DNA from: an uncultured Aliiroseovarius sp.
GTDB lineage: Bacteria > Pseudomonadota > Alphaproteobacteria > Rhodobacterales > Rhodobacteraceae
Assembly: GCF_947497285.1 (NCBI RefSeq)
Contig: NZ_CANMFT010000011.1
Span: 1 to 53,025 of the forward strand
DNA: 53,025 bases
Direction: 5' to 3'
In this document: piece after piece, positions 3,582 through 53,025 of the stretch
Numbering within the stretch: the stretch's first letter is position 1
Layout: each line of letters starts with the position of its first letter
Translations under genes and position numbers: made by a program
The notes under the pieces: model-generated
The model's input: only the letters and a program-made list of their open reading frames with translations
What the model was told of the DNA's origin: nothing
Databases searched by the model: none

Positions 3582-3827
3582 CTACTCCATTCGCAATAAG
3601 GGCAGCATAGCAAAAACGCACGAAAATTGCGAAACCAGTGCGCAAAGCGCTAAATGGTAGCGTTTTTCAGGCCGAGCACCTGGGCAATGGCGCGCAAGAT
3701 CATGTACGAGGCCAACGAGAGGCGCGATTTCGAGCCCGAAATAGGGTGGAAAAACGCGCAAACCGACCAAGGCGAGGCCGCAGGATCCAAAACCAAGTTG
3801 CGGAAATTGGCCGATGAACTTGGGCAT
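3582..3827 (-). CDS. Possible small hydrophobic protein downstream of repC
   Basis: 81 residues. Its ATG overlaps the repC stop (TGATG), the usual sign of translational coupling. The sequence is hydrophobic with Phe/Leu/Gly-rich segments and no recognised motif. The opposite strand is also open over much of this interval, so this may be a shadow ORF; the region directly downstream of repC could instead be non-coding replication DNA. Confidence 0.3.
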   Translation of the reverse strand: MPKFIGQFPQLGFGSCGLALVGLRVFPPYFGLEIAPLVGLVHDLARHCPGARPEKRYHLALCALVSQFSCVFAMLPLLRME

Positions 3828-5029
3828 CAGAAACCGCGGCGGCGCGCGAGGCCAATGAGGCTGCCGACCAGGTTCAACTTACCCGATTTGTAGCGATCAG
3901 TCATGGCGCGCAGCGCCCCGCCCGGGTTGCGAATTGGCGTGCTGGGATGATTGCGATTGGCGTCGATCAGTAGAACACACAGGGCAGCGCCCACGTCGCC
4001 CATGAGGCTGACAGCTTTGATCCAAGCGTCGTGATTGATGCCAAGCGGGTGAATGATACGGGTTGCAGCGTCGATGATGTGGATTTCGCGCAAGGTGGGG
4101 GTATCGTCCTGACAGGCAAGGATGTAAGACTGCATATCATTACTTGCGAGGTTGAAAATGCGCTCCGGGGTCAGCTGGGCGATGAATTTGTTGTTGTGCG
4201 CCGCCCTCTCCGCTTCATGCTTTTTTTCTAAGCAATCTTCGGGGCCGATAGGCTCCGAACAAACAAATTCCATGTGCGCGGGCTTGCCCGCGCTCCGTTC
4301 ATCCACGCCAGCGTTACAGATTACAGATGAACTATCTTGGTTGTTCTCTTGTATAAAGCACGGGAAGTTTTCTGCCGCTTTGGCGGTAGAATCTGGACGT
4401 GTTTCAAGGAAATCATCCAAGGTTGTGCACAGGGCTTGGGCCTCGGAAACGTGACGTTCCAGCGCCTCGATCGGCATACTGGCGAGACGCGCGGCCACGG
4501 GCCAGGCGTCAAACGCCTCGATGATGCTCAGAAGGCGAGGATGGGTCAGCTCGTCGGCTGCGGCGTCTCTTAGGTGGCGCTTGATGTGGCGAACGTATGT
4601 GCTGCGACGGTTGCGTAGCTCCTTCCGGCGAAACCTCTCGGCCGCCATCTGCTCCTTTAGGTGTAGAAGATCGGGAACAAGCGCGATTAATTTGGAAAAC
4701 ACGATCCCGCACCCGCCAAAGGGCGAGCGAGATCCGTTGCCCTTAACCCGTTTTTCGATCAACCCAGCGGCTTCAAGGGCGGCTTCGTCGTCGTAAAGCG
4801 CGCGGCGGGTCTTGTTCAACGCCTCTGCGGTTTGATCCTGGGGTGCGAAAAAGACCGGCTCGCGGTCCGGCGCGGTCCAGTCACCGGGGGCGGTCTGTTT
4901 CATCATGTAAAGAAGCGCGTGAAGGCGCGCGCCGCGCAGCCCGAGGGCTGGGGCCAGCTCGATAAGAAGCTGTTCAACGGAAAAACGCTGGTGGCCTTGC
5001 GGCAGCGTCGGGAACGTCCTGTCTGTCAT
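3827..5029 (-). CDS. repC: Replication initiator RepC (solitary, no adjacent repAB)
   Basis: 400 residues. The N-terminal half carries the RepC winged-helix core (LYDDEAALEAAGLIEKR, then GSRSPFGGCGI) typical of alphaproteobacterial repABC-class plasmids. The C-terminal part ends in the family's NPGGALRAM..RYKSGKLNL..S block. I chose the ATG at 5029 because AAGGA lies seven bases upstream; an in-frame extension to 5113 lacks a Shine-Dalgarno. RepC binds the origin, which in this family usually lies inside repC. There is no repA/repB next to it; partition genes are 33 kb away at 38.4 kb. The upstream leader (5030-5620) contains two repeated terminator hairpins that may control expression. Confidence 0.9.
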   Translation of the reverse strand: MTDRTFPTLPQGHQRFSVEQLLIELAPALGLRGARLHALLYMMKQTAPGDWTAPDREPVFFAPQDQTAEALNKTRRALYDDEAALEAAGLIEKRVKGNGSRSPFGGCGIVFSKLIALVPDLLHLKEQMAAERFRRKELRNRRSTYVRHIKRHLRDAAADELTHPRLLSIIEAFDAWPVAARLASMPIEALERHVSEAQALCTTLDDFLETRPDSTAKAAENFPCFIQENNQDSSSVICNAGVDERSAGKPAHMEFVCSEPIGPEDCLEKKHEAERAAHNNKFIAQLTPERIFNLASNDMQSYILACQDDTPTLREIHIIDAATRIIHPLGINHDAWIKAVSLMGDVGAALCVLLIDANRNHPSTPIRNPGGALRAMTDRYKSGKLNLVGSLIGLARRRGF

Positions 5030-5182
5030 GTCCTGTCCTTGCTCGTTAGTGAAGCAAGACGGTGGCGGGCAAATCTTCTTCGTTCGCACTAATGCGTTTT
5101 TTGTTGCCAGCACTATGAGGGGGTGGTAAAACCGAGGTCAGAGAATTGGACCTACTGAAGAATTGGCGTTCTTCGGTTTCAG

Positions 5183-25663: not shown

Positions 25664-27187
25664 TCAGCCCTTGAAGTTCCACGGTAGCAGCAAGTCGATA
25701 TCCTTCTGTTTATGGCCATTCACGATGGCCGAGAGGACGCCTGTCAGATAGCTGTGCGGCTCGACGTGGTTCAACTTGCACGTCTCGATGAGCGAGGCGA
25801 TGACGGCCCAGTTCTGGGCACCGGCATCGTGGCCTGCAAAGAGCGCGTTCTTGCGCTGTAGAGCGATGGGGCGGATCGTGCGCTCGACGGCGTTGCTGTC
25901 CATCTCGATGCGGCCATCGGTGAGGAACAGGATGAGCCCATCCCAGTATTTGGCGATGTATTTGAGCGCCTCCCCCGTTGGGGATTTGGCAGAGACCTGC
26001 GTGCGGGCATGATCCAGCCAGGTTTTGAAGGCAGCTACTTTGGGCGCGGACTTTTGGTTCCGAACAACGAGACGTTCTTCAGCTGACTGGCCACGGATCT
26101 GCTTCTCGATCCGGTAAAGCGCCGCGATCTGCTTGAGCCCGTCCTCGGCAATGGGGGCCACATTGTTGTGGGTCAGATCATAGAGCTTGCGACGGGCATG
26201 GGCCCAGCAATAGGCCAGCTCGATCGGCGCATTGTCACGCAGATCAAGCACGCGGTTGTAGCCAGCATAGCCGTCCACTTGCAGGATGCCGCTAAAGCCC
26301 TGCAATATCTGGGATGCGTATTTGCCGGATCGGCCGGGTGTGTATGTGAAGGCTACGCCGGGCGGTTCAAGACCATTCCACGCCCTGTCGTCCCGCGCCA
26401 GCGCCCAGAAGTAACCTTTCTTCACCTTGCCCCGTCCCGGATCGAGCACCGGCGCTGGTGTCTCATCCATGAAGAGCTTGGAACTTGTTTTGAGATGCGC
26501 CAGCATAACGTCATGGATAGGCTTGAGTTCGTGGGCCGCTTTGCCCACCCATGAGGCCAAGGTGGATCGCTCGATATTGACGCCTTGGCGGGCATATATC
26601 TGGCTTTGCCGAAACAGCGGCAGGTGATCTGCGAACTTTGACACCAGCACCGTTGCGACGGTCGCCTCAGTGGGCATGCCGCCCTCAATGAGATGCGGCT
26701 TCGCCGGGGTCTGCACAAAGCTGCCTTCACATTTGCGGCAAGCATATCGCGGGCGGCGGGTGACGATCACCCGGAACTGTGCGGGCACGATGTCCAACCG
26801 CTCGCTCACATCCTCGCTGATGACGTGGCGCTCGTGGCCGCAAGAACAGGTGGTGCTGTCTGGTTCGATGATCTCTTCCACGCGCGGAAGATGCTTAGGC
26901 AGGAGCCCGCGCGGCTTGCGCTTGGCGGGCTTGGTCTTCGGCGGATCAATCGCCTCATCTTCGGCATGAACCACGGCCATTGCTGTTTCGATATCTTCCA
27001 GCGCCAGATGATACTGGTCCGGATGACCCTTCTCGGACTTCGCGCCATAGAGCGCACGCTTGAAGTCCGCCAATAACTTTTCCAGCCGTTCGATCCGCAC
27101 ATCCTTGCGCGCATTACGTTCCTCCGAGGCGATAATGATCGCCTTCAAAGCATCAATATTGTTGGGAAGTTGGTCAAGCGCAGTCAT
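25664..27187 (-). CDS. tnpC: IS66 transposase TnpC
   Basis: 507 residues. Coiled-coil N-terminus with ERNARKDVRIERLEKLLADF, a zinc-binding region (CSCGHERH, YACRKCEG), then the DDE-type catalytic part with LFMDETPAPVLDPG, LQVDGYAGYNRV, AHARRKLYDL and ERTIRPIALQRKN, ending in HVEPHSYLTGVLSAI. Full length for the family; the inner copy is intact. Confidence 0.96.
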   Translation of the reverse strand: MTALDQLPNNIDALKAIIIASEERNARKDVRIERLEKLLADFKRALYGAKSEKGHPDQYHLALEDIETAMAVVHAEDEAIDPPKTKPAKRKPRGLLPKHLPRVEEIIEPDSTTCSCGHERHVISEDVSERLDIVPAQFRVIVTRRPRYACRKCEGSFVQTPAKPHLIEGGMPTEATVATVLVSKFADHLPLFRQSQIYARQGVNIERSTLASWVGKAAHELKPIHDVMLAHLKTSSKLFMDETPAPVLDPGRGKVKKGYFWALARDDRAWNGLEPPGVAFTYTPGRSGKYASQILQGFSGILQVDGYAGYNRVLDLRDNAPIELAYCWAHARRKLYDLTHNNVAPIAEDGLKQIAALYRIEKQIRGQSAEERLVVRNQKSAPKVAAFKTWLDHARTQVSAKSPTGEALKYIAKYWDGLILFLTDGRIEMDSNAVERTIRPIALQRKNALFAGHDAGAQNWAVIASLIETCKLNHVEPHSYLTGVLSAIVNGHKQKDIDLLLPWNFKG

Positions 27188-27990: not shown

Positions 27991-29400
27991 TCAAATCAAC
28001 GAGGCAAGGAATCTCAGATCACGAAACGATTGGGAAGGTCGGGTCAAAACACCGCTTACGTTCTTGCGCTGTAGAGCGATGGGGCGGATCGTGCGCTCGA
28101 CGGCGTTGCTGTCCATCTCGATGCGGCCATCGGTGAGGAACAGGATGAGCCCATCCCAGTATTTGGCGATGTATTTGAGCGCCTCCCCCGTTGGGGATTT
28201 GGCAGAGACCTGCGTGCGGGCATGATCCAGCCAGGTTTTGAAGGCAGCTACTTTGGGCGCGGACTTTTGGTTCCGAACAACGAGACGTTCTTCAGCTGAC
28301 TGGCCACGGATCTGCTTCTCGATCCGGTAAAGCGCCGCGATCTGCTTGAGCCCGTCCTCGGCAATGGGGGCCACATTGTTGTGGGTCAGATCATAGAGCT
28401 TGCGACGGGCATGGGCCCAGCAATAGGCCAGCTCGATCGGCGCATTGTCACGCAGATCAAGCACGCGGTTGTAGCCAGCATAGCCGTCCACTTGCAGGAT
28501 GCCGCTAAAGCCCTGCAATATCTGGGATGCGTATTTGCCGGATCGGCCGGGTGTGTATGTGAAGGCTACGCCGGGCGGTTCAAGACCATTCCACGCCCTG
28601 TCGTCCCGCGCCAGCGCCCAGAAGTAACCTTTCTTCACCTTGCCCCGTCCCGGATCGAGCACCGGCGCTGGTGTCTCATCCATGAAGAGCTTGGAACTTG
28701 TTTTGAGATGCGCCAGCATAACGTCATGGATAGGCTTGAGTTCGTGGGCCGCTTTGCCCACCCATGAGGCCAAGGTGGATCGCTCGATATTGACGCCTTG
28801 GCGGGCATATATCTGGCTTTGCCGAAACAGCGGCAGGTGATCTGCGAACTTTGACACCAGCACCGTTGCGACGGTCGCCTCAGTGGGCATGCCGCCCTCA
28901 ATGAGATGCGGCTTCGCCGGGGTCTGCACAAAGCTGCCTTCACATTTGCGGCAAGCATATCGCGGGCGGCGGGTGACGATCACCCGGAACTGTGCGGGCA
29001 CGATGTCCAACCGCTCGCTCACATCCTCGCTGATGACGTGGCGCTCGTGGCCGCAAGAACAGGTGGTGCTGTCTGGTTCGATGATCTCTTCCACGCGCGG
29101 AAGATGCTTAGGCAGGAGCCCGCGCGGCTTGCGCTTGGCGGGCTTGGTCTTCGGCGGATCAATCGCCTCATCTTCGGCATGAACCACGGCCATTGCTGTT
29201 TCGATATCTTCCAGCGCCAGATGATACTGGTCCGGATGACCCTTCTCGGACTTCGCGCCATAGAGCGCACGCTTGAAGTCCGCCAATAACTTTTCCAGCC
29301 GTTCGATCCGCACATCCTTGCGCGCATTACGTTCCTCCGAGGCGATAATGATCGCCTTCAAAGCATCAATATTGTTGGGAAGTTGGTCAAGCGCAGTCAT
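27991..29400 (-). pseudogene. tnpC: Outer tnpC, interrupted
   Basis: Identical to the inner tnpC for about 444 codons, up to LQRKN, then runs into the end of the inner element and stops after about 25 foreign residues. The missing C-terminal part remains at 25461-25651. Without the intact catalytic C-terminus it is unlikely to work. Confidence 0.93.
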
Positions 29401-30886: not shown

Positions 30887-31090
30887 TCAGTCGTGTAAGA
30901 AAAAAATCTTATGTTCTATTTCACTAGCAGGCAAAGCCCAATCGACCAATAGGTTGCCATCGTCACCGCGGTATCTCCTACCGACCTGTATCAGCTCACC
31001 CTCGACGCGAATAGAGATCTTCAGCTCGTCGGCAAACTGGTTCGTCCGAGTTTCCGCTACGGTATATGCGTTTGCGGTTTCATCACCCAT
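30887..31090 (-). CDS. Small conserved protein downstream of luxI
   Basis: 67 residues. The core LKISIRVEGELIQVGRRYRGDDGNLL is clearly related to LKISMRINGELVEVGQRYRG in the protein at 40665-40859, so the plasmid carries two paralogues. Its ATG overlaps the luxI stop by eight bases, so it is likely co-transcribed and quorum-regulated. Function unknown. Confidence 0.65.
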   Translation of the reverse strand: MGDETANAYTVAETRTNQFADELKISIRVEGELIQVGRRYRGDDGNLLVDWALPASEIEHKIFFLHD

Positions 31091-31802
31091 TGAACAACAC
31101 CTTGTTAAAAGAATTGGAAATATAATCTGTTAAAGCGTAGAGGTCCGTGCTGCCGTCTTCAAACGGGGGTAACACCTCCGTTTCGAAAGCGAGAAAGCTG
31201 TCGCCAGGAGTTCCTACAACCGGTCCCATCGGTACAGGAGTATAGCCCATTCCCTTAGCCATTCGCATGAAGGCCCTTGGACCGAGAAACAAGCATTTGG
31301 TCGCCTTCTGTGCGTGTAGAAAATCGTTCGAAGCCTTCAGCACGGAGCGAGCAACGGACGGGTCAGCATCGCCGACGACAAGGCGCGTCAGCTCCCAAAC
31401 ATTTTCGTCTTGGGGTGGTTGTGAATCACAAATGTTCGTTGGCAAGCCCTTTAGGACACCCTTAAAAGCGTCATTGATCATATACGTTGACGACTGATTG
31501 CGAGGACTCTTGTGCACTCGGTCGGTACAGACAAGCCTTGCGCCACCAAGTACACGATTGGAACGAGGTTCATAAGCGATGATGTAAAGAGCGTCGAAGC
31601 AATCATAGCTGTCCAGATCGTTTTTGGTTGGCAACCACACATCCCACCCTTTTTCGTTTGTGAAAACACGCGTGCGAAGGTCCATGTACTTTGCAAAGAG
31701 GTCATTGTTCAGCTCCTCGGCGGTGCTTGCAGGCATTCTTCCTGCAGGAACGGTCACAATCGAACATACGTAGCTCATAGGGATTCTGGTGATGTTGGTC
31801 AT
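31083..31802 (-). CDS. luxI: LuxI-type acyl-homoserine-lactone synthase
   Basis: 239 residues. LuxI pattern: YMDLRTRVFTNEKGWDVWL (conserved Arg, Phe and Trp), DSYDCFDALYIIAYE, RVLGGARLVCTD, and ENVWELTRLVV. It makes the diffusible acyl-HSL signal. The ATG at 31802 was chosen (AAGGA ten bases upstream); one further in-frame start exists upstream. Divergent to luxR, with two dyads between them, the usual arrangement of an autoinduced pair. Confidence 0.92.
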   Translation of the reverse strand: MTNITRIPMSYVCSIVTVPAGRMPASTAEELNNDLFAKYMDLRTRVFTNEKGWDVWLPTKNDLDSYDCFDALYIIAYEPRSNRVLGGARLVCTDRVHKSPRNQSSTYMINDAFKGVLKGLPTNICDSQPPQDENVWELTRLVVGDADPSVARSVLKASNDFLHAQKATKCLFLGPRAFMRMAKGMGYTPVPMGPVVGTPGDSFLAFETEVLPPFEDGSTDLYALTDYISNSFNKVLFNG

Positions 31803-31890
31803 GGCGCGTCGATTCCTTCTCGGTTGCATGTATCAACATCGGGAATGTGATCGGAGGAATCCAGTTTTACGAGAATATTACCTTGCATAA

Positions 31891-31977: not shown

Positions 31978-32646
31978 ATGAGCAAGAGTTCTAAAGCTGG
32001 AAAGTACCGAGCCAGAACGACAAGTATGATTTCAGCGGCATTCCAGGCCCACCTTGATGATGTGGAAGCTATAGGAACCGCTGGGTATAGCATGGTGGTT
32101 AACGGTCGTTTGCTCGGCCCAGAGCATTTTGAAACCACCTATCCTGATAGTTGGCAAGAGCGATACGAAAAGCTGAACTGGATCGCTCTTGATCCGATCC
32201 TGAATTGGGCTTTCAGAGGTCCAGGTGGCGATGAACGCTGGTCAGAAATTGTTGTTGGCTCCATCGGCGCCAAGAGGTTCATGAAAGCGGCCAAAGATGT
32301 TGGGCTATGCTATGGCGGAATTTTCGTGCGAAATATCGGCACAGGCACGTCATTCCTGAGTGTTGCACGATCAGATCGAGAACTGACTGCCGCTGAAATG
32401 GTGAAAATGAGCACTATCGCCACAGAGTTTTTTGCTGACATAACAACAGAAGAACGGATCTCGGGCAAAGCTATTGATGTTTTGCAACGGCTTGCGGACA
32501 ATCAAAGTATTTCTGAGATTGCCGAAGCCCTGAATATCAGCGAGAGCGCTGTCAAAGCTCGCTTAAATGACGCGCGAAAGAAAACTGGTGTACCAACCAC
32601 CAACGGGCTTATCGCTCACTTGAGGCGCAAAGGGTTAGTGCAGTAA
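31978..32646 (+). CDS. luxR: LuxR-family quorum-sensing regulator
   Basis: 222 residues. N-terminal autoinducer-binding domain (YSMVVNGRLL, WQERYEKLNWIALDPILNWAF with the conserved Trp-Asp-Pro context) and a C-terminal GerE-type HTH (ISEIAEALNISESAVKARLNDARKKTGVPTTNGLIAHL). It pairs with the divergent luxI. Shine-Dalgarno is weak at the ATG at 31978. It probably controls luxI and the small gene behind it; control of transfer genes nearby is possible but not shown. Confidence 0.9.
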   Translation: MSKSSKAGKYRARTTSMISAAFQAHLDDVEAIGTAGYSMVVNGRLLGPEHFETTYPDSWQERYEKLNWIALDPILNWAFRGPGGDERWSEIVVGSIGAKRFMKAAKDVGLCYGGIFVRNIGTGTSFLSVARSDRELTAAEMVKMSTIATEFFADITTEERISGKAIDVLQRLADNQSISEIAEALNISESAVKARLNDARKKTGVPTTNGLIAHLRRKGLVQ

Positions 32647-32970: not shown

Positions 32971-34887
32971 TCAGCCAGCCAGTTTCTTTCTAGGCGGGCG
33001 TCTTCGCATTTTTGCCGCAGCTGATATGCTCGCAAACCCTTCCTCAGCTTTTTCGAGTATCGCCTGACGCTGCTCATCGGTCTGAGGATGCTTTGACTTC
33101 GAACCGGACAGGTGACTTAGCTTTGCCACTTTGGTTTTTTTCCGCTCATGTTCAAGAGGCGGGTATGGAAGCAAATGCGTTCCCCTTGCAGCGTCAATCG
33201 GAGCAAAATGATTGTCTTCATAGAAGCGAATGTGGTCAGCTTTGATCGGATACTGACCTTCCGGAAGGATCAATACCTTATCCAGGGGGAACCGTAGAAG
33301 CTCGCTTGCGGAAACCAAAGGCCGTTCCTCAGACCGGCGACTAACATGAGCACTATCGTCCAAATCACGGACACGCGACTGGCTTTCGCTTTTTGATGTG
33401 ATGGTGTGTTTGCCGAGCGCTTGGGCGAGAACTTCGGCGGTCCTGTCGTCCTGAGGTGTCATATAGATCTGAATACCCGCACCGGCCAACAATGACCGTC
33501 GATCAGCTTCCCCATACAGCGACGGTGAATCAAGGCCTGCGATAGATTGGGAAATAATGAAAAACCGACCGCCGAAGGCGCGAATGGTCTTGATTGACTG
33601 CAACACAAGAGGTTGTCGGCCGAGCTGGTCAAACTCGTCCATGAGAAACATGACAGTATGTGGCTCGTCTGAACCGGGCTCAGACCGTTGCAATGACGAA
33701 ATAGCATCGGCAAAGAGAAGTCGGATCAAAGGAGCAAGGGTTTTCAGATGTTCGGATTGCACCGAAATATAGAGCGTCTGGGGGTCTTTGCGGAAAGTTG
33801 TAAAATCAAAATCGCTCTCTGATGTTGATCGCACCACTGATGGATCTGACCAAAGCTCAAATCCCGCGCCATTGATCACAGAAATATAGCTATCCACAAT
33901 CTTCTGGGTCTCGCCAGCCATTTCGTTGAATGTTCTTGAAACAATGGGAATGGCTGTCATGTCCGCGTATGATCTGTAATTATCCGTGCGGCGTCCACCT
34001 CCGCCCATAATCTCAGAAGCGTATCCAAGCGTCGGATTGCCTTGTTCGATAGCAAACAAACAAGACGCCACAAAAAGCCGTTTCCCTGCTTGATAAAACC
34101 CTTTGGCATTATCGCCTTCGACCACAAGAAAAAGGTCGGCCATCGCATTCAAAGCGGTGTACTGCTCATCGGTTGATGCCATATCAGCGATACGCTGAAG
34201 TGGATTAAACCGGTGTGTCCTCGTGACTCGGCCCGCAGTCGGTTTGCCTTCCATGGCAGGCATGTCAACATAATCGAACGGTGAAAAATACCAGATTTCA
34301 TTGCCCAAGCCTTTCTGGCGGTGCACTGATGATTTCTGGAAATTCTCTCCCTTAACATCAAGGACAATGGCAGAACCATTGAAATGAAGAAGGTTAGGCA
34401 GCACGAAGCCGATCCCCTTTCCTCGACCCGTAGGAGCAATCATGATCGCATGTGGAAAACGATCGGGTGACGCCGAAATAAATGGCTTGTCACTTTTTGG
34501 GCGTCCCAGCTTGCCGTACACGAAACCATTCACATCGAAGCCGCCAATCATCTTGTTGCGTCGGATCTCTGATTTCGATTGAAAATGAGCATCGTCATAT
34601 TGTGTAAGGCTGCCTCGATAGACACCGGCAACGCCAACAGCGGTCAAAGCGAATGTCACAGCTCCGGTAATCAACAACGCGGACTGTAGAATAGCAGGTG
34701 ATGCCTCAAGGGTTGCCCAGGAATACCGAAGAAAGAACGGTTGAAGCGGATCAATCGTTGCTACGGATTCCTTTCTAGCTACTACAACGTAGATGGTCGC
34801 CAGCATCGAACCGATGTAGCCACCCGCAAGCAATCCGCCGAAAAGCGCCAATACATAGCGCCAGCGAGTTTCAATATCCTGGATCAT
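32971..34887 (-). CDS. virD4: VirD4/TraG type IV coupling protein
   Basis: 638 residues. Two N-terminal membrane helices (about 11-37 and 66-90), Walker A APTGRGKG at 151-158, Walker B region VMFLMDEFDQLG, and IISQSIAGLD. It links the relaxosome to the VirB channel. Its ATG follows the relaxase stop by 17 bases with AGGAG upstream, so relaxase and coupling protein form one operon. Confidence 0.95.
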   Translation of the reverse strand: MIQDIETRWRYVLALFGGLLAGGYIGSMLATIYVVVARKESVATIDPLQPFFLRYSWATLEASPAILQSALLITGAVTFALTAVGVAGVYRGSLTQYDDAHFQSKSEIRRNKMIGGFDVNGFVYGKLGRPKSDKPFISASPDRFPHAIMIAPTGRGKGIGFVLPNLLHFNGSAIVLDVKGENFQKSSVHRQKGLGNEIWYFSPFDYVDMPAMEGKPTAGRVTRTHRFNPLQRIADMASTDEQYTALNAMADLFLVVEGDNAKGFYQAGKRLFVASCLFAIEQGNPTLGYASEIMGGGGRRTDNYRSYADMTAIPIVSRTFNEMAGETQKIVDSYISVINGAGFELWSDPSVVRSTSESDFDFTTFRKDPQTLYISVQSEHLKTLAPLIRLLFADAISSLQRSEPGSDEPHTVMFLMDEFDQLGRQPLVLQSIKTIRAFGGRFFIISQSIAGLDSPSLYGEADRRSLLAGAGIQIYMTPQDDRTAEVLAQALGKHTITSKSESQSRVRDLDDSAHVSRRSEERPLVSASELLRFPLDKVLILPEGQYPIKADHIRFYEDNHFAPIDAARGTHLLPYPPLEHERKKTKVAKLSHLSGSKSKHPQTDEQRQAILEKAEEGFASISAAAKMRRRPPRKKLAG

Positions 34888-34904: not shown

Positions 34905-37223
34905 TTAAAGACTAATATCATCTGACAGGTCTGGTGTGACGCTGTGATCTTTTTCACCAACCTTGATAGCTGCGCTTTGACGGGCGAGCTGCTGGAACTG
35001 GTCAACAGGCTCGCTATGGCGCTCGTTCCCATCTGAAACATCAGCTTCGTTGCGAAGCTCAGATCCCACTGCGGCACGAATAGCCGGGTCTTTGATTTCT
35101 TCACGCAATGCAGTGTAGTCCCCTGCCCTTACGTCGTCCAAATCTTCTTGCGATAGTTCTTGCGACATGCGCTCAACAATCATTTCGATGGCCGGGACGT
35201 CAGACAGTCGCTGATACCTCTCGCCATAGATCAGCTGATCGCGAGCAATGACCTCCTGAAGATCACGTGGAACTTCATAGTCAGCGAAAATATTGGCAGC
35301 TTCTTCGGATAGGTCGCGCTCAAGTCGGTCATAGGACACTGGAAGTTGACCCGTAATCTCATCGAGCGCAGAAACTTGCCCATCTACGAGCTGATCAACC
35401 TGCCGTTCTGCGGCCTCCGGATCGAACATTGCACCATCTTCGTGCTGCGCAAGATCCAAGTGATTGCGACGCGAAATATCCAGTGAGGTGCGCAAACCAG
35501 TTTCGTCACGTTCCATGAGCGCTGGCAAAGCGGCCATATATTGCCGTTCTTCGTTCGTCATAGACGATTCAGATGCCATCAGATCGCGCAATGAATCAAC
35601 ATAGTCGCCCGCTGTTTCATGGCCTTCGTGTTCTGTGCCGAGAGCTGTGGCGGAAACGATCAATGTTTCATACTTGGAGTAAACGCTGTCGCTGTCGAAA
35701 TTTTCACCCACTCCATTCTCCAGCTCTGCCAAAACTGTGCGCGAGTGGTCCATATCTACCTCTGGGCCGATACCCTGAGCGCGCCAAGCCTCGACTTGGC
35801 CTGCGGTGCGATTGGACAACATAAACCGCTCCGCCATTTCTTCGGCATTCGTCCCCGCCCTTTCAAGTCGATCTTCATGCACGGTAAACGCCGCTTCAAG
35901 TCGCTGCCTTAGATCGTCCATCGCCATTTCCGATGTACGGTGCGCAGCGGGATCGTCGCCAAGGTGATCACGGACAGAATGAATATCGCGAACAATATCC
36001 AAGCTGTAAGGATCGTTATCTTGTGATAGTTCGCGAGCGTGGTGCTCCATGAAGGGCTCCGATACTGCTGCATCCCGCATCAAACGGGTTTCTTCAGCAA
36101 ATCGCTCTTCCAGATGGGCACGCTCTGCTCCGGGTTCCATTTCCTGAATGTCGGCCCAGGTCTCGCGGGCAGACGCAAAAATTCGTTCAACATCTTGCGA
36201 GAAGCGTTCTGTCGGGTCGATGCTAGGCGGTTGGGTGTCGGTTGCAGTCATGAGTGAGCCTCCTTCTTTCAAAATATCAGATGCAGCGGAAAACATGCCG
36301 CTCAGTTTCTCCATGAACCCCCCCTGCCCTTCTGAGACGGTGGTCAGGCGGGCTATCGAACTTAGGGATTGGTATTGATTGGCAAAGCTTCTCAGCATTG
36401 CTTCGCGCTTCATGCGCTCAACAATCGACATTTTAGGCGCTTCAACGGACGGTGTTTCCTCGCCGGTCATTTTGAGATTGTCGTGTGCTGCGCGATATTC
36501 CGTCTCTCGGGGCGGATATTCGACAACACCACGAGACAAACGAGACGAAGCATTCAAAGCGACACCATGTTCATTGGCTATTTTGGCATGAAGCTCTCGC
36601 ATAACGTCATAGTTAAGTTCCGACTTCATGCTGATAGACAAAAACTGGCCGTGATCATTGCCGCGCTTATCAACGACGAAATGAGCATGGACATGATCAG
36701 TGTTGGCATGCAGTGCAGCAACATAGCGCCACTGATCCCCAAAATCGCCTGACCCAAACACCGCCCTGCCCCACTCTTTTGCGATGTTCTCTGCTGCCTC
36801 TACATTGGTATCCTTTGGAAAACTCAAAATGATATGATCAGAGTGACCTCGCTTGGGATTACCTGCCCAACTGCTTGTCCATAATGGAACTGTGGTTTCC
36901 ACAGAGTTCTTGTAAAGGCCGCGCTCAATTCCATTGAAGTTCAACCATGTTGATTTTGTTGCCTCGTCGCGTGTGATGTAATCAAGCTGGCGGCGCAATT
37001 CCTTGGGAGAGTGCGCACCTCCATTGCGAACCCGCTTTACAACTGATTGCGGAACTCTTTGTGCATTGCCTGCCATTGCACGGCTGGCGCGCTGCTGACG
37101 GGTGCCGAGCCGAAGCATGATCGCCTTTTCTATCGGGTCAGATCGCATTCCCGCGTGGCGACGTCCGATGTTAGGCAACACCTCTCCGATGATGGCGTCT
37201 TGAATTGAAACCTGGTTACTCAT
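34905..37223 (-). CDS. VirD2-like relaxase
   Basis: 772 residues. Relaxase domain in the first ~260: candidate nicking Tyr at about 82 in LRRQLDYITRDEA, and the metal-binding histidines in ALHANTDHVHAHFVVDKRG (about 171-187), the MOBP/VirD2-type three-His motif. The long C-terminal part is acidic and helical, probably for partner binding and secretion. It overlaps the MobC gene by eight bases. It cuts oriT and leads the strand into the recipient. Confidence 0.9.
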   Translation of the reverse strand: MSNQVSIQDAIIGEVLPNIGRRHAGMRSDPIEKAIMLRLGTRQQRASRAMAGNAQRVPQSVVKRVRNGGAHSPKELRRQLDYITRDEATKSTWLNFNGIERGLYKNSVETTVPLWTSSWAGNPKRGHSDHIILSFPKDTNVEAAENIAKEWGRAVFGSGDFGDQWRYVAALHANTDHVHAHFVVDKRGNDHGQFLSISMKSELNYDVMRELHAKIANEHGVALNASSRLSRGVVEYPPRETEYRAAHDNLKMTGEETPSVEAPKMSIVERMKREAMLRSFANQYQSLSSIARLTTVSEGQGGFMEKLSGMFSAASDILKEGGSLMTATDTQPPSIDPTERFSQDVERIFASARETWADIQEMEPGAERAHLEERFAEETRLMRDAAVSEPFMEHHARELSQDNDPYSLDIVRDIHSVRDHLGDDPAAHRTSEMAMDDLRQRLEAAFTVHEDRLERAGTNAEEMAERFMLSNRTAGQVEAWRAQGIGPEVDMDHSRTVLAELENGVGENFDSDSVYSKYETLIVSATALGTEHEGHETAGDYVDSLRDLMASESSMTNEERQYMAALPALMERDETGLRTSLDISRRNHLDLAQHEDGAMFDPEAAERQVDQLVDGQVSALDEITGQLPVSYDRLERDLSEEAANIFADYEVPRDLQEVIARDQLIYGERYQRLSDVPAIEMIVERMSQELSQEDLDDVRAGDYTALREEIKDPAIRAAVGSELRNEADVSDGNERHSEPVDQFQQLARQSAAIKVGEKDHSVTPDLSDDISL

Positions 37224-37761
37224 TCATCGCACCTCCGATTGGAAAGGCTGCTTCCACGAACGCCCTTTGGCGACTTGCAGATACAAAAGCGACCAACTGA
37301 TTGACCGCCCCATCAACCTTTACGTCGAGCTGCTGCACAAGCCTGCCGTCCCTTGCATTCCAAGTAAGACGCCCCGATTGAGCCAACGCAACGAGCTGGT
37401 TTAGGTTCACACCGATGGCGTTGAGCTCTTTTCGCAACGCCGCAAGCGCCTCAATTTCTTCAGTCTGTAGATCCAGAACACCCAAAGAATGGCGAACAAG
37501 ACGCCTTACACCATCCGACATGGTGATACCAAGCGCCTCAGTTTTTGCTTTGAATGCCGCGTGTTCTTCGTCTGAAACACGACCTCGGACGTTCTGACCG
37601 CCGGTAGTTACGCTTCTTTTTTGTTTGCTCAATCTGATTTTCGTCACCGTCGAGCGGTGACGACCGAGCTTTCGCGCAATGGAAGCATCGCTTTCACCCT
37701 CAGCAATAAGTGCCTGAATTTTCAGGCGTTCCTTGTTGGTGATGCGTCGTTGTTTAGGCAC
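37216..37761 (-). CDS. mobC: HTH-MobC fusion, relaxosome accessory protein
   Basis: 181 residues from a GTG at 37761 (GGAG about ten bases upstream); the frame is open to 37863. The first 50 residues form an HTH (RRITNKERLKIQALIAEGES, DASIARKLGRHRSTVTKIRL) like that of IS30/Hin-type proteins. The rest is MobC-like: RGRVSDEEHAAFKAKTEALG, then LRKELNAIGVNLNQLVALAQ. It probably binds oriT and may regulate its own operon. Confidence 0.75.
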   Translation of the reverse strand: MPKQRRITNKERLKIQALIAEGESDASIARKLGRHRSTVTKIRLSKQKRSVTTGGQNVRGRVSDEEHAAFKAKTEALGITMSDGVRRLVRHSLGVLDLQTEEIEALAALRKELNAIGVNLNQLVALAQSGRLTWNARDGRLVQQLDVKVDGAVNQLVAFVSASRQRAFVEAAFPIGGAMNE

Positions 37762-37782
37762 AGATTTTGGCTCCGTCAAAAG

Positions 37783-37802
37783 TGTGATAAACTCATACCA
37801 CA
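37783..37802. promoter_or_regulatory. Candidate operator of the mob operon
   Basis: TGTGATA-AACTCA-TACCACA, an imperfect 7-bp inverted repeat just upstream of the HTH-MobC start. The HTH protein itself is the obvious candidate ligand. Confidence 0.4.
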
Positions 37803-37959
37803 ATATACCGTTCCAGCCAACCGACCTTTTAGGCCGGTTTTCGCTCCTTCGGAGAAGTATCACTTGCGAAAATCGAACAGCTTAAAAGGTCTCCGTTTAC
37901 GCCACCGGAAACCGATGCAAATCGCGTTTCCACAGCAGGTGGCGAAAGCAATGAGGACA

Positions 37960-38045
37960 CACAGTGTCCGAATTTCCGTTTGGTGGCCCGTCACGGCCAC
38001 CTATGCGCCCTCGCCCGCCCACGGCGGGCGCTAGGGCGCGCGCAG
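37960..38045. other. oriT: Candidate oriT region
   Basis: Strong inverted repeats between the mob operon and parA: GACAC-ACA-GTGTC around 37960-37972, GGTGGCC/GGCCACC at 37982-38001 and CGCCCGCC-CAC-GGCGGGCG at 38012-38030. Location directly upstream of the relaxosome genes fits oriT. I could not identify a nic motif with certainty. Confidence 0.35.
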
Positions 38046-38084
38046 CCCATCAGCGCCACACACGGTCAAAAAAAGTAAGTAACC

Positions 38085-38396
38085 TCCGCATATCATCGCT
38101 TCATCATTTCCGCTTTTATGTTTTTCCGCATTAACGGTTATCAGCAATAGCGTAAAAGCGCATCGCAGCACCAGCGCAACAGCGTCACTCCTTACCTAAG
38201 CAACTCCGCAACTGCGTAATTCCTTGTTTACGCATCTGTGTGGTTGGGAGGTTCCGTGTTGACGCATTTCCGCTACTCAGCTATTCCATGAAAGAGCAGT
38301 AGGGAACTTCATCGGTTCCGCAAAACATTAAAAGCGGTATTCAACAAATCCGCGCAAGGCCGCTTCCGCAAATCCGCACAAGTGCAATTCAGATGA
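38085..38396. repeat. Contiguous degenerate octamer array, probable centromere (parS/parH-like)
   Basis: TCCGC occurs at 38085, 38109, 38125, 38205, 38269, 38317, 38349, 38365 and 38373; every interval is a multiple of 8. Read in that phase, nearly all of the intervening octamers are relatives of TCCGCAAT (e.g. TACGCATC, AGCGCAAC, TCAGCAAT, TGCGTAAT), about 38-39 units. The array lies directly upstream of parA and fits binding by the ribbon-helix-helix protein encoded after it. It ends just before the parA Shine-Dalgarno. Confidence 0.8.
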
Positions 38397-38407
38397 GGCA
38401 AACGACG

Positions 38408-39172
38408 ATGCAGGTAGTAACACTCATTCAAACCAAAGGTGGATCAGGCAAAACCACCTTGGCAATGACCCTGGCGAGCGCAGCTCTTGCCAAGGGTCAC
38501 AAAGTTCAAATGTTCGACGGCGATGTAAACAAGCAGCTTTTGAGCTGGAAGCCATCCTTCGAAGATGCTGATTGGGCACACATCGAAAAACCTGACTGGC
38601 CCGAAGACCTAAAGATTGATGAACCACCAGTTGACGTGAACGAGCTCTACGCAAAGCTTGATGAGTTAGAAGAAAGCGGCACAGATCTCGTGATCATCGA
38701 CACAAGGCCCGGCAGTTACGAAAGCACTGAAGATTTTGCCAACGCGGCAAACATTGTGTTGATACCTGCGAGACCAGCTCAAGCAGAATGGAGACTGGTA
38801 CTATCCGCTTTTGAATGGATGACTGCATTGAAAGGCACGCTTGCCAAGGGTGAACGCTTTCCCAAAGTAAAATCAGTTATTGCCAACGTGCCTACAAAAA
38901 TCATCAAAGCAGCAGCTGGTGTTGGCAGCTCAGGCTCACTCCCTAAGCGCGACCAAGATGTACTGAATAACATCCTCGAAACACCTCACTTGGACACGAT
39001 GATCCCAAACAGTCGAATTTTGGAAAATCTGTTGTTCCATGGTCCATTGCCTACGGCTGAAAAAGCACATCGAAATGGGCGAGGCGGCAAGCTCATGGCG
39101 GATCATTTTGAAGACCTGAAAGACATAGCCGTAAGCCTTTATGACGAAATCATCGAGGGGGACGAACAATGA
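38408..39172 (+). CDS. parA: ParA-type partition ATPase (ParF-like, no N-terminal HTH)
   Basis: 254 residues. Deviant Walker A KGGSGKTT at about 10-17 near the very N-terminus and Walker B DLVIIDTRPG. The short N-terminus without HTH is typical of type Ib (ParF-like) ATPases. I chose the ATG at 38408 (GAGG nine bases upstream); ATG at 38393 would lie within the octamer array. It drives plasmid positioning together with the next gene. Confidence 0.92.
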   Translation: MQVVTLIQTKGGSGKTTLAMTLASAALAKGHKVQMFDGDVNKQLLSWKPSFEDADWAHIEKPDWPEDLKIDEPPVDVNELYAKLDELEESGTDLVIIDTRPGSYESTEDFANAANIVLIPARPAQAEWRLVLSAFEWMTALKGTLAKGERFPKVKSVIANVPTKIIKAAAGVGSSGSLPKRDQDVLNNILETPHLDTMIPNSRILENLLFHGPLPTAEKAHRNGRGGKLMADHFEDLKDIAVSLYDEIIEGDEQ

Positions 39173-39831
39173 GCCGTAGACGCCCACCATTAAAAGTAGC
39201 TCCGAGTCCAGCGGCTCAACGCGACGAAACCAAGCAAGTCGAAAAAATCGTTGAAAGCAGCCGCGCTCTTCAAGAGAGAATGAAGAAATCGGCTGACAGT
39301 CACGGTACAGCAAAGCCAACAAATGCTGTTCTCGATGAAAAACCATCAGCTCCAAAGCCTCGATCCAAGCCGAAGTCAAAGACCGTCGAACAATCGACGC
39401 CAAAGCCCGCTGATCAGGCGCCAACCGCTCACGAACCAGAAGCCAAGCCCAAAACGGCTTCACCTTCGCGGCGCATGAGCATTTGCGTTCCTATTAATTT
39501 GACTATGCGTAATAGGGCAGGGGAGATTGCTAAAAAGCTCGACAAAGACGCGGACTACGTAATCAACGCCTATCTTAAACGAACCAAACAAGGTCTATTT
39601 GAACGCTGGAAAAGCGGACAGCTGGAAGACCTTGCTTCGGATGCAAATCTCCTACTGGATCAGCAAGCAGACAAAGGAACGCGCCAACATAGAATAGACG
39701 CAACACTGGAAGAAGCTCTTTCAGATGACATTCGCAGTTTGATGGATGATCCATTGGACCTTGTTACGATCAACAAGAAAGCAGCTGCGTTTTTCGGTGC
39801 GGAAATGCTCGCGCAGCTTACAAAGGAATGA
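39169..39831 (+). CDS. ParG-like ribbon-helix-helix centromere-binding protein
   Basis: 220 residues; the ATG overlaps the parA stop. The first ~95 residues are Lys/Pro/Ser-rich and probably disordered (a ParG-like flexible arm). Then RRMSICVPINLTMRNRAGEI and KKLDKDADYVINAYLKRT look like a beta-strand and two helices of an RHH fold. A helical C-terminal extension of about 70 residues is longer than in classic ParG. It should bind the octamers upstream and repress parA. Confidence 0.7.
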   Translation: MSRRRPPLKVAPSPAAQRDETKQVEKIVESSRALQERMKKSADSHGTAKPTNAVLDEKPSAPKPRSKPKSKTVEQSTPKPADQAPTAHEPEAKPKTASPSRRMSICVPINLTMRNRAGEIAKKLDKDADYVINAYLKRTKQGLFERWKSGQLEDLASDANLLLDQQADKGTRQHRIDATLEEALSDDIRSLMDDPLDLVTINKKAAAFFGAEMLAQLTKE

Positions 39832-39854: not shown

Positions 39855-40280
39855 TCAGCAAGACATGTCGGCAATTGGCTCCATACCTGACAATTGCAAT
39901 GAATCCTGGCTGGTTACGAAAGCATAGTCACCGCCTTCGCCAATGATCGCCACCATCTTTGACCATTGTTCCTCGTCAGCCTTAAACTCAGACACGACAC
40001 CATTATCAACCGTGAATGCCGCCTGTTCACCAGATTGCGCGAGCAACACCACCTGCGCCGGGGCGGGGTGGTTTGCGAACTGAACGGAGAGAGTGGCGTT
40101 CGATTTGTCGCCAAATACCCGATCAGGATCACAAGCCAACGTGATTGAGTAACCGTTTTCTGCATAGGAAAACACAGTCATTCCACGCGAAATGGATTGT
40201 TCCCATTGAGAGCCTGCTAACGCAGGCGTTGCAGCTGCAATGAGGCTCATTGCAAGCGAAAGCCGTAAACTAGTTTTCAT
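39855..40280 (-). CDS. Secreted hypothetical protein
   Basis: 141 residues from the ATG at 40280; an in-frame GTG pair lies just upstream. Signal peptide ending at TPALAG. The mature part is mainly beta (YSITLACDPDRVF, ATLSVQFANHPAPAQVVLL) with two cysteines, one near the middle and one at the end. No known function. Confidence 0.7.
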   Translation of the reverse strand: MKTSLRLSLAMSLIAAATPALAGSQWEQSISRGMTVFSYAENGYSITLACDPDRVFGDKSNATLSVQFANHPAPAQVVLLAQSGEQAAFTVDNGVVSEFKADEEQWSKMVAIIGEGGDYAFVTSQDSLQLSGMEPIADMSC

Positions 40281-40449
40281 CACCACTAACCTTCTATTGA
40301 CATGTTCAACTCATGGCAGAATCCAAGCAATGTGACAACATGCTTATGAAAGAATGTGCGGACACGCGCCAAGGCGCGCGACATTCGTTTGGTAGTCCGC
40401 CGCCACCTTTCGTCAAAGGCGTAAAGGGGCGAGCACCAGCAAAGCTGGC

Positions 40450-47642: not shown

Positions 47643-48183
47643 TCCTTTGTGGTGCGACGTTTCGGGCTTGGTGCCTTCTTTCCGCCGATGGGCTGCGCCT
47701 CGGCTCTCTGATCTGACCGGAAACGCATGTTTCCGGCGGAACAGAGTGGAGAGGGCGTAAGCCCGACCCACGGGCCTGAACGGGACTGTCAACGGTCTCG
47801 GGGCAGGGGTGGTGCGGCCCGCAGCGTAGCGAGGACACGGCCCTGACACGCGACGACCGCGCAGCGGGCGCTTGCCGATTGACCGGCCAGGGCAGGTCTG
47901 TTGGGCGGACAAACAAGAAATGGAAAACTGCCTGATCCGATAGAGCGCAAGCGGAATCGGGTCAGACCTTTGGGATGTGCGATCTGCGCGCCTCGCGCGG
48001 ATCTCGAAAGACTGACTGCGACAGTCGGTCGTTACCCTCAAGGGCCGATCCGCGCTGTCTAGGGCAACCATGCTGGCCGTGTCGGGTGCTGGCTCATGTG
48101 AGACAGAAACCGGCACACTAGGCCGCAGGGAGACAGGGCAGGGGGGTTCGGGGCGAAAGCCGGCATGCCGGCTGAAGCCTAGA
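47643..48183. repeat. Long structured leader repeat, copy D
   Basis: Full-length copy, most similar to copy A; its first 131 bases equal 52895-53025 and 1-131 exactly. Hairpins: CCGGAAAC-GCAT-GTTTCCGG near 47717-47736, CCGAT...ATCGG near 47938-47960, GATC..GCGCGCCTCGCGC..GATC near 47980-48003, GACTGCGACAGTC near 48014-48027, and the perfect palindrome AGCCGGCATGCCGGCT near 48159-48174. On the minus strand it leads into the gene at 47635. Confidence 0.85.
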
Positions 48184-50340: not shown

Positions 50341-52194
50341 TCACGCCATGCCTTCGGGCAACCATGCGTCGATCTTGGCGGCTTGCTCGTCGGTGACGTT
50401 GTGCGCTTTGCGCATGTCGGCATCGGAAAACAGCTTCTCCAACTTCTCGGCCTTCTCGCCCTTTTTCAGCTTGGCAAAGGTAGTGGCGGTCGGATGATCT
50501 TCGGACAGGTCCAGAAGATCGCGCCAAATCTCGACCATGTAAGGACCACCAACGCGACCAAAGAAGTTTTCAGCGGTCGGCGTCCAAACCTCGCGAATGC
50601 TCGGCTTGGTTTCCTTTGCTACCATCGCCGCCAGCTTGGCCTCACCACCTTGATACTGCGCAGCCAGAAAGCGGGTCAGTTCGCCTTTGATGTGATCCGC
50701 ACCCTTCTTGCGGAACGCGCGGAAGGATGCGCCAAGGTCTTTTGCATCGTACATGTCGCGCGGCGGATTGCTGGTCAGACGTTCGTCCAGTTCATAGCCA
50801 TTGCCCTCGGTGGTGGGCCAGTTCGGGACAGTATTCATGGAAATTCCAAAGGGAGTTTTCCAGAAAAGATTGTGGCTCAACTGGTAGGCCAGAAGGTCGA
50901 TCAGCAAGTCAGGATCGCGCAAGATCGCGTGTTGCTGCGCCCCTTGGGCGATGCGAGACAGATCGTCGGCCAGCTTTTGAGAAATAGGCGACTTCTTCAC
51001 ATCACTGTTGCCAGTGCTGTGCGCCGATTTTTTGAGAATGCCAGCGTCGATAGCAGCCTGTTTATCTTCGGGCTTCACCATACCAGCCGAAAGTTTCACC
51101 GCGCCTTCGCGGTCCACATAGACAAACGCGCCTGCATGGGCCTTCTGTTCTTCGGTGAAATCACCGTCAAGGATCACCTGCAAGGCATCAAGCTCTGCTT
51201 GGCCTTCCTCGTCCAACACGCCACCATCTTCAAGCTCGCCCAACTCGTCAAAACGCTCAACCTGTTCTTCGGTCAGGATGCCCTCAACCGGATAGATACG
51301 GCCAAACTTTTCCAAACCCATACTGTAGGTGCACACATACGGCTCGGTGACTGTATCAACCCACTTCCAGCCTTCGGCCTCGCAAACTTCCTTCGCGGCG
51401 GCGTCCAGTTTCGCGTTGAACACCTCGTCCAGAATTTCGGGGTTGTCGAATAGGGTAACTTCGGCAAACAGATCACCGCCGATCTTGCCACCTGCTGCTT
51501 TATAGGCTTCCTCGCCTACGTAAACTGCGCGACGGTTGGACCCTTCCACACTGTCAGGTTTCAGCAAGCTTTTCAGTTGATAGTCAGACCAGCTTTCGCC
51601 GCGAACATGCTCCAAAACCTCAAGGCTGCGTTTCTCGTCGTCGCTGATCGTGAAACATGCAGCCATGCTTAGATTGATTTCGCCTGCCGCCAATGCCTCG
51701 ATGATCGGATCGGACAAATGCGCCAGCGCAAGGCGGCGATAGACGTGCTTTTCCGTGACCGCGAAAGAGCGAGCGATAGCGGCTGGTGTCGATCCTGCGG
51801 CTTCCATTTTGCCATAGGCACGGATTTCATCGGCGGGTGACAGATCGCGTCGTGCCACGTTCTCGGCATAAGCCCATTGTTCGGCGGTTTCTGCGTCCGG
51901 TGCCAGCATCACCATAGGGTTTGCCAGTTCGGGGCGCGTATCTGCCATGTTCGGGTGTTGTTCTGCGAGATACTGCAACGCGCGCAAGCGGCGACCGCCT
52001 GCAACAATGTCGGCTCCACCCATATCGTCGCCAAGGCCAGCGATAGGCTGGATCAGACCAGCGGCCCAGATGCTTTGTGCCAGTTCGGCAACTTCATGCT
52101 CGGGAACATGTTGGCGCGGGTTCAACGGGGAAAGTGTCAACATAGCCAGCGGAATGCGGGCTTCGGTTGCGATGATTTTGGATTGCTTAGTCAT
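50341..52194 (-). CDS. Large ParB-like (ParB/Srx-fold) protein of the anti-restriction block
   Basis: 617 residues from the ATG at 52194 (AAGGA eight bases upstream). ParB N-domain at about 10-110: LSPLNPRQHVPEHEVAELAQ, then DIVAGGRRLRALQYL; an HTH follows (TPAAIARSFAVTEKHVYRRL). The C-terminal ~400 residues are an acidic extension seen in ParB-like proteins of anti-restriction islands. It is distant from parA, so partition is less likely than a role in establishment after transfer. It might also have nuclease-like activity. Confidence 0.85.
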   Translation of the reverse strand: MTKQSKIIATEARIPLAMLTLSPLNPRQHVPEHEVAELAQSIWAAGLIQPIAGLGDDMGGADIVAGGRRLRALQYLAEQHPNMADTRPELANPMVMLAPDAETAEQWAYAENVARRDLSPADEIRAYGKMEAAGSTPAAIARSFAVTEKHVYRRLALAHLSDPIIEALAAGEINLSMAACFTISDDEKRSLEVLEHVRGESWSDYQLKSLLKPDSVEGSNRRAVYVGEEAYKAAGGKIGGDLFAEVTLFDNPEILDEVFNAKLDAAAKEVCEAEGWKWVDTVTEPYVCTYSMGLEKFGRIYPVEGILTEEQVERFDELGELEDGGVLDEEGQAELDALQVILDGDFTEEQKAHAGAFVYVDREGAVKLSAGMVKPEDKQAAIDAGILKKSAHSTGNSDVKKSPISQKLADDLSRIAQGAQQHAILRDPDLLIDLLAYQLSHNLFWKTPFGISMNTVPNWPTTEGNGYELDERLTSNPPRDMYDAKDLGASFRAFRKKGADHIKGELTRFLAAQYQGGEAKLAAMVAKETKPSIREVWTPTAENFFGRVGGPYMVEIWRDLLDLSEDHPTATTFAKLKKGEKAEKLEKLFSDADMRKAHNVTDEQAAKIDAWLPEGMA

Positions 52195-52268
52195 TAGGTT
52201 CATCCTTGTTTGGTGGTGAGATTTTGTGTTATGGATGCCCCAGCCCTGACGGGCTGAGGCGAGAGGGC

Positions 52269-52379
52269 TTAAATGGCCCCATGCTGGATCAGGAAGCGGC
52301 GTCCGATACCAAACTGATCGCCCTTCCTGAGAAGCGCCCAAGCCTCGGCAATGTGGCGCTTCTTCTTTTCATTGCTCAT
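52269..52379 (-). CDS. Very small protein in the parB-like operon
   Basis: 36 residues (MSNEKKKRHIAEAWALLRKG, then DQFGIGRRFLIQHGAI). Excellent Shine-Dalgarno AAGGAAGGTG. It lies between DUF3768 and the ParB-like gene on the same strand. The sequence looks like a short helical, basic protein. Confidence 0.6.
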   Translation of the reverse strand: MSNEKKKRHIAEAWALLRKGDQFGIGRRFLIQHGAI

Positions 52380-52894: not shown

Positions 52895-53025
52895 TCCTTT
52901 GTGGTGCGACGTTTCGGGCTTGGTGCCTTCTTTCCGCCGATGGGCTGCGCCTCGGCTCTCTGATCTGACCGGAAACGCATGTTTCCGGCGGAACAGAGTG
53001 GAGAGGGCGTAAGCCCGACCCACGG
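52895..53025. repeat. Terminal 131-bp repeat, identical to 1-131
   Basis: Identical to 1-131 and to 47643-47773. The base before it (t at 52894, g at 47642) and the base after it (t at 132, g at 47774) differ, so 131 bp is the exact shared length. This is what an assembler leaves when a circular molecule is cut at a repeat. Confidence 0.9.

Follow-up and report, generated by a model that had tools for sequence, protein, structure and literature searches.

An array of 39 contiguous octamers, all in one phase and without spacers, occupies 312 bp (38085..38396, forward strand) of the window, by which we mean the whole 53-kb contig analysed here (53,025 nucleotides), whose positions serve as coordinates throughout. 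The array stands between a nic-like site and the gene for a VirC1-like ParA ATPase, and we propose, with a probability of about 0.6, that it forms the binding lattice for a VirC1/VirC2-type module beside the origin of transfer (oriT), on which the ParA-like ATPase would be loaded. That the module is of the VirC type is likely, we hold it rather probable that transfer is its main function, and the odds of some role in partition on the window plasmid are about even.

The octamers follow a consensus of about TCCGCAAT (T-C-C-G-C-A-(A)-T), in which position 4 (G) and position 1 (T) are the most informative. Nine TCCGC cores (38085, 38109, 38125, 38205, 38269, 38317, 38349, 38365 and 38373) share one phase modulo 8, and both their positions and their spacing by multiples of 8 are as the original prediction described. 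The lag-8 autocorrelation proposed there as a check gave a self-match of 0.447 against 0.251 ± 0.025 in dinucleotide shuffles, none of 2000 reaching 0.447, and self-matches at lags 16, 24, 32, 40 and 48 likewise exceeded all 2000. Period-8 information in the array amounts to 174 bits, compared with 15.5 ± 4.8 in 500 shuffles (z 33), and period 4 yields 53 bits; across the 53 kb, the period-8 maximum (176 bits) falls on the array region and the best non-overlapping place reaches 38. Leave-one-out scores are positive for 33 of the 39 octamers, and the suggestion that almost every octamer is a variant of the consensus thus holds in substance, if worded a little strongly. Scores are negative for all 11 octamers that precede 38085 and for the 10 that directly follow 38396 (the eleventh following, inside parA, is positive), so the array ends sharply on both sides, and the best run of six octamers scores 32 inside it versus 14 outside. 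The octamers are also oriented, the forward profile averaging 4.5 in phase and the reverse strand 0.15 at best.

The 3′ end of the array lies 11 bp before the likely start of parA, an ATG at 38408 where the homologues begin (the listed ORF starts at 38393). The ATPase gene (38408..39172, forward strand; 254 aa) and that of its VirC2-like partner (39169..39831, forward strand; 220 aa) are divergent from three genes on the reverse strand. These encode a VirD1/MobC-like auxiliary relaxosome protein (37216..37761; HTH_38 at 5e-9, a NikA-like match at 6e-6, just under the cut-off, and a weak VirD1 match), a VirD2-like MOBP relaxase (34905..37223; PF03432 at 1e-12, and NCBIfam VirD2 at 2e-25, below its cut-off) and a VirD4-like coupling protein (32971..34887; PF02534 at 8e-68, and NCBIfam VirD4 at 3e-108, below its cut-off). 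For the start of the VirD1/MobC-like gene we followed the start annotated in L001, which is pGal_E78; L-numbers here label the compared loci. On Ti plasmids virC1-virC2 is divergent from virD1-virD2, and the window shows this same order with a nic-like site between the two gene pairs. Close to these transfer genes we also noticed, by eye, a LuxI/LuxR quorum-sensing-like pair (31083-31829, reverse strand, and 31978-32646, forward strand). Elsewhere in the window, two ORFs that look transposase-like by eye (25664-27187 and 27991-29400, reverse strand) are identical over most of their length.

The nic-like core, CCACAATATACCGTTCCAGCCAACC (37798..37822, forward strand), is kept among 11 chosen aligned sequences, the window included, and the array starts about 270 bp from it. 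By analogy with RP4-type nic sites, the nick would fall near 37816/37817; an RP4 oriT oligonucleotide carrying CCTATCCTGCCC appears in a published account (PMC3772185). Inverted repeats lie 3′ of the core within 37823..37891 (37823-37834/37880-37891 and 37835-37844/37866-37875), and a consensus fold of oriT has 14 pairs with weak energy, the 3′ half of the alignment being poor. In the predicted stem of 37817-37891, one position pairs as C-G in 7 of the 11 sequences and as G-C in the other 4. Another candidate near 38000, TGCGCCCTC, which we take to resemble an IncQ-type nic, was rejected because the element conserved in the aligned relatives is 37798-37822.

The assignment of the ATPase draws on PF07015, on alignment A2 and on its phylogeny. 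PF07015 (VirC1) is its best Pfam match, at 53.3 bits against a curated cut-off of 24, over profile positions 1-130 of 231. Against the NCBIfam VirC1 equivalog NF010423 it scores 51.1 bits, below the cut-off of 313, and the 'ParA family partition ATPase' profile scores higher (67.8), both values being below cut-off; the L101 ATPase itself reaches only 237 against NF010423. In a 46-row tree, a 100/100 branch separates all 22 transfer-associated ATPases from all 24 others and places the window ATPase on the VirC1 side, together with the L101, L104 and L107 ATPases, which give full-length VirC1 matches (2e-71, 1e-69 and 7e-67) and join the window clade with weak support (83/51). This split is valid for the chosen rows, since these were picked after a first tree, with ParF and Ti VirC1 absent and most of the 24 others being ParAs of untested function. 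The first tree had 96 rows, and a filter on P-loop letters had removed L101, L102, L104, L106 and L108, all five of which were restored in the 46-row tree; in the first tree, the long-branch L082, L061 and L074, labelled as being without transfer genes, sat on the transfer side. The 46-row tree leaves out these three and L024, and near-copies were thinned. Grouping with partition ParAs, as expected of a type Ib ParF/ParG system, was thus not seen for the window ATPase in the 46-row tree, from which ParF is absent.

For the partner, the N-terminal half is of low complexity, and AlphaFold2 modelling of the C-terminal 128 residues (11 sequences; mean pLDDT 91.5) predicts the order b-a-a-a-b-a-a, that is, strand-helix-helix, a linker helix and strand-helix-helix, giving two ribbon-helix-helix (RHH)-like halves in a single chain. 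The product of the gene at 39169 is the likely partner of the array, as originally supposed, with an RHH fold by prediction. The supposed 'ParG-type' identity is not supported and we dropped it, because the tree and the predicted fold disagree with it: the ATPase stands on the VirC1 side of the 100/100 split, and the predicted partner is a single-chain double RHH in place of a small single-RHH protein acting as a dimer. The position of the array, with a nic-like site on one side, parA on the other and VirD1-, VirD2- and VirD4-like genes reading away, does not suggest that identity either.

The partner has no useful family match in Pfam or NCBIfam, with neither an RHH nor a VirC2 (PF07181) match in Pfam at E up to 1. 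Foldseek returns the VirC2 structure 2rh3 second by E-value, a weak match (E 0.41) with the highest probability among the 50 rows listed (0.66). The partner of a sister clade with 7-bp arrays is predicted to have a similar double RHH in the same order, the linker helix being absent, and for it 2rh3 ranks first (probability 0.92, E 0.028). Profile comparison of window-clade partners with those of L101, L104 and L107 gave a modest probability of 35% (E 4e-4 for that single pair), against 60% for sister-clade partners with the same set and 68% for the window clade with the sister clade. The L101-L104-L107 profile found 2rh3 in the PDB (E 1e-4), and neither the window-clade profile (alignment A1) nor the sister-clade profile did so. 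Among 15 partners scanned with PF07181, only those of L101 (1e-4) and L104 (0.06) matched, both below curated cut-offs, and that of L107 did not. All three clades of partners share a DP motif in their second half, usually as DPL or DPM; exceptions include L002 (DPW) and L004 (DS).

Periodic arrays recur beside related ATPase genes. A tblastn search found relatives of the ATPase in 92 plasmid records, and 21 loci were chosen from the 60 records listed, Agrobacterium being left out: 19 from transfer regions, and two, L109 and L110, with no transfer genes within the retrieved sequence. In 18 of the 19 transfer loci the upstream annotation includes a relaxase; the exception, L108, shows a hypothetical protein in that place, its plasmid being typed MOBP. 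Judged against matched shuffles (40 each), 18 of the 19 carry a periodic array, and L006 has transfer genes and no array. The step is 8 in eight loci (L001, L004, L005, L007, L097, L098, L101 and L104), 4 in three where 8 does no better (L002, L003 and L108), 7 in five (L099, L100, L105, L106 and, marginally, L103, at 28.5 versus at most 23.8 in shuffles over 200 bp and clearer over 120 bp), 13 in L102 and 17 in L107, which gave no signal at the periods examined first. The repeat units differ between relatives while the steps are kept. Several of these loci are near-copies, such as L002/L003, L007/L098, L005/L097 and L099/L100, so the independent cases are fewer than 19. In L101 and L104 the 8-bp array precedes virC1, with period-8 scores of 94 and 94 (40 shuffles of each reached no more than 19 and 17), and a ATATATCCTGCC nic-like site is visible. 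L004, a Maritalea plasmid, carries perfect GCAAAACA copies followed by degenerate ones (3582-3781), and its array lies near the gene for a MobF, not a MobP, relaxase. We also observed 7-bp arrays before VirC1-like ATPases in L014, L016, L017, L031, L039, L053, L087, L099, L100, L103, L105 and L106. A small conserved ORF with a signal-peptide-like start by eye adjoins the module in the window (39855-40286, reverse strand), and among the 8-bp-type loci examined, which did not include L097 and L098, it has the same neighbour in all but L004 and the truncated L013.

A scan of genomes points the same way. Among the 79 of 80 ParA loci that could be scored, a period-7 or period-8 array is present in 9 of the 10 whose upstream stretch matches a relaxase or coupling protein and in 3 of the 69 lacking such a match (Fisher p 1e-8), at a threshold of 40 that was chosen after the scores were seen and that control periods, reaching 33.6, do not attain. 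The one transfer-linked locus lacking an array, L082, has only a 23% coupling-protein match on the opposite strand, and of the three array-positive loci without a transfer match, two (L008 and L009) lie on short contigs and the third is L053. L041 scores 36.4, between the control maximum and the threshold, and L012, a close relative, is array-negative on a contig that begins 394 bp before the match. In a search of 390 genomes of the order, 8, the source genome included, showed a relative at E 1e-20; the seven further loci from it were scored at period 8 without a shuffle control, six giving 37-53 and one 28. Period-9 signals, seen at many unrelated loci, were taken for codon periodicity and rejected.

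We envisage the following mechanism. Each VirC2-like chain would be a pseudo-dimer whose two unlike RHH halves read one octamer, an arrangement that would suit the orientation of the octamers, given the forward and reverse profile scores above. Successive chains would align head to tail, for as many as 39 steps, and the resulting filament would load the VirC1-like ATPase, which in turn would bind parts of the relaxosome and the VirD4-like coupling protein and so deliver the plasmid, once nicked, to the type IV channel. A protein lattice on 8-bp steps adjoining a ParA gene, the core of the original prediction, is retained as probable. Since the lattice reaches to 11 bp before the parA start, repression of the operon by its own filament is also probable, and the complex may double as a centromere on the window plasmid. 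Some observations count against a VirC reading: the partner's missing VirC2 match in Pfam, its weak fold match to 2rh3 and the modest profile match to the VirC2 set; the position of the array 3′ of the putative nick, overdrive being 5′ of the nick; and a divergence from pGal_E78, confined to the module, that would fit a partition determinant better.

This divergence is one of several points that would suit a plain type Ib-like centromere, with the RHH protein bound along the array, ParA moving the plasmid copies apart and oriT close by only incidentally. Over the roughly 9 kb compared with pGal_E78, the flanks are 85-98% identical and the stretch at about 37982-39744, which takes in the array, parA and the greater part of the partner gene, is only 51-73% identical, the nic-like core and relaxase being conserved; this may reflect a module-sized swap or fast divergence, and could fit an incompatibility specificity cassette, although simple recombination could look alike. 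(In L007 and L011 the blast gap covers part of the array only; in L007 it is 3695-3837, with flanks of 96% and 93%.) The ATPase is also the sole ParA (PF13614) match on the 53-kb contig, contigs C9 and C10 of the same genome carrying ParA-ParB pairs, and the module ParA is the only one above cut-off in 9 of 19 complete relatives, six of these nine having weak, below-cut-off CbiA matches inside long frames; from sequence, the lone ParA and the divergent module may thus favour use as a centromere. A search with the ParM-type partition profile PF06406 gave no match, the controls likewise giving none. Finally, in L109 and L110 an 8-bp array precedes a ParA whose best score is as a partition ATPase, and because of these two loci a lattice alone does not imply transfer. 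We nevertheless consider the centromere-only reading improbable: the ATPase lies on the VirC1 side of the tree, relaxase and coupling genes are consistently associated with the arrays, the other 10 of the 19 relatives have a second ParA (adjoining a ParB-type gene in 4 of 7 checked), and L006 lacks an array though its plasmid has no other ParA above cut-off. Among further features of the window, a RepC-like replication gene (3827-5113, reverse strand) was found, with no RepA-type match elsewhere on the contig, and a large ParB-domain protein (666 aa; 50341-52341, reverse strand) has no adjacent ParA, similar long ParB-type frames occurring on several relatives. A 131-bp repeat lies at 1-131, 47643-47773 and 52895-53025; two copies form the contig ends, and because of the third, at 47643, the shared ends do not establish a complete circular plasmid.

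Somewhat less improbable, though still doubtful, is a dual use in which a single nucleoprotein complex sited at oriT would keep vertical inheritance and transfer in balance, as for R388 stb. The evidence for transfer and that for partition would both count towards it, and there is precedent in StbA, described as binding repeats beside oriT and affecting both stability and transfer (PMC3098194). In the window both functions are read from sequence, and the stbDRs, 9-bp repeats with 2-bp spacers, offer an analogy only. An array serving solely as autoregulatory operator of the parA operon would explain why its end is 11 bp from the start of parA, yet 312 bp and 39 sites are long for an operator, the best 200-bp periodic stretch in L002 and L003 begins about 500 bp before parA, and a weak scan of 37750-38450 found no sigma-70-like promoter, so that we regard this as very unlikely. 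To a functionless, decaying tandem repeat we give almost no credence: the octamers do vary much, but the phase is held across 312 bp between sharp ends, and relatives keep their steps with different repeat units.

The preferred reading, a VirC1/VirC2-type lattice beside oriT, bears on a wider question. To our knowledge, the DNA read by VirC2-type proteins and the loading of VirC1 at the transfer origin are poorly defined, and among titles and abstract openings on VirC1/VirC2, oriT repeats, overdrive and conjugative plasmids, a body of literature that leaves most subscription journals outside, we found no arrays like this described. The long, regular lattices of alphaproteobacteria are clean targets for footprinting, come with natural variants of differing step, and allow one to ask directly if one complex serves both partition and conjugation. 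More speculatively, VirC1/VirC2-type phased lattices, stepped by 4, 7, 8, 13 or 17 bp according to lineage, could be combined oriT-centromeres in which array, ATPase and partner change together as a specificity cassette under incompatibility, oriT and relaxase remaining in place and the Ti overdrive being a reduced and displaced remnant; were this tentative idea true, the same lattice would partition the plasmid and pass it to the conjugation channel.

Among known systems, the omega/delta partition system of the Gram-positive pSM19035 uses a homodimeric RHH repressor on contiguous short direct heptad repeats, a step comparable only to that of the 7-bp sister clade and different from the octamers of the window. 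The type Ib system ParF-ParG-parH of TP228 resembles the window in its short ParA, RHH partner and degenerate array of short boxes. ParG, however, is a dimer forming one RHH domain from two chains, whereas the window partner is a predicted double-RHH chain, and parH is described as tetramer boxes with AT-rich spacers (PMC7308502), in contrast to contiguous octamers at an oriT position. R388 stbABC-stbDR shares with the window a ParA-like protein, a DNA-binding protein and direct repeats beside oriT, but stbDR is reported as having five 9-bp repeats in each of two sets, separated by 2-bp spacers (PMC3098194), and we rejected a filing under R388 stb because this geometry differs from a spacer-free period of 8. 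The Agrobacterium Ti VirC1/VirC2-overdrive system matches the window in its VirC1-type ATPase, a single-chain double RHH (VirC2-like by prediction in the window), the divergent VirD1/VirD2/VirD4-like genes and the nearby nic-like site. In published accounts VirC1 and VirC2 both aid relaxosome assembly, and VirC1 also binds overdrive and places the transfer intermediate at the pole (PMC4949242, PMC4285021); one review assigns overdrive binding to VirC1 and not VirC2 (PMC4285021), which counts against the VirC-type reading. The Ti system further differs in that the window partner does not match the VirC2 sequence family, in that overdrive lies to the right of the T-DNA right border (PMC4285021), unlike the array, and in length, overdrive being a short element (24 nt in its vector form; PMC5030305) against a lattice of 312 bp.
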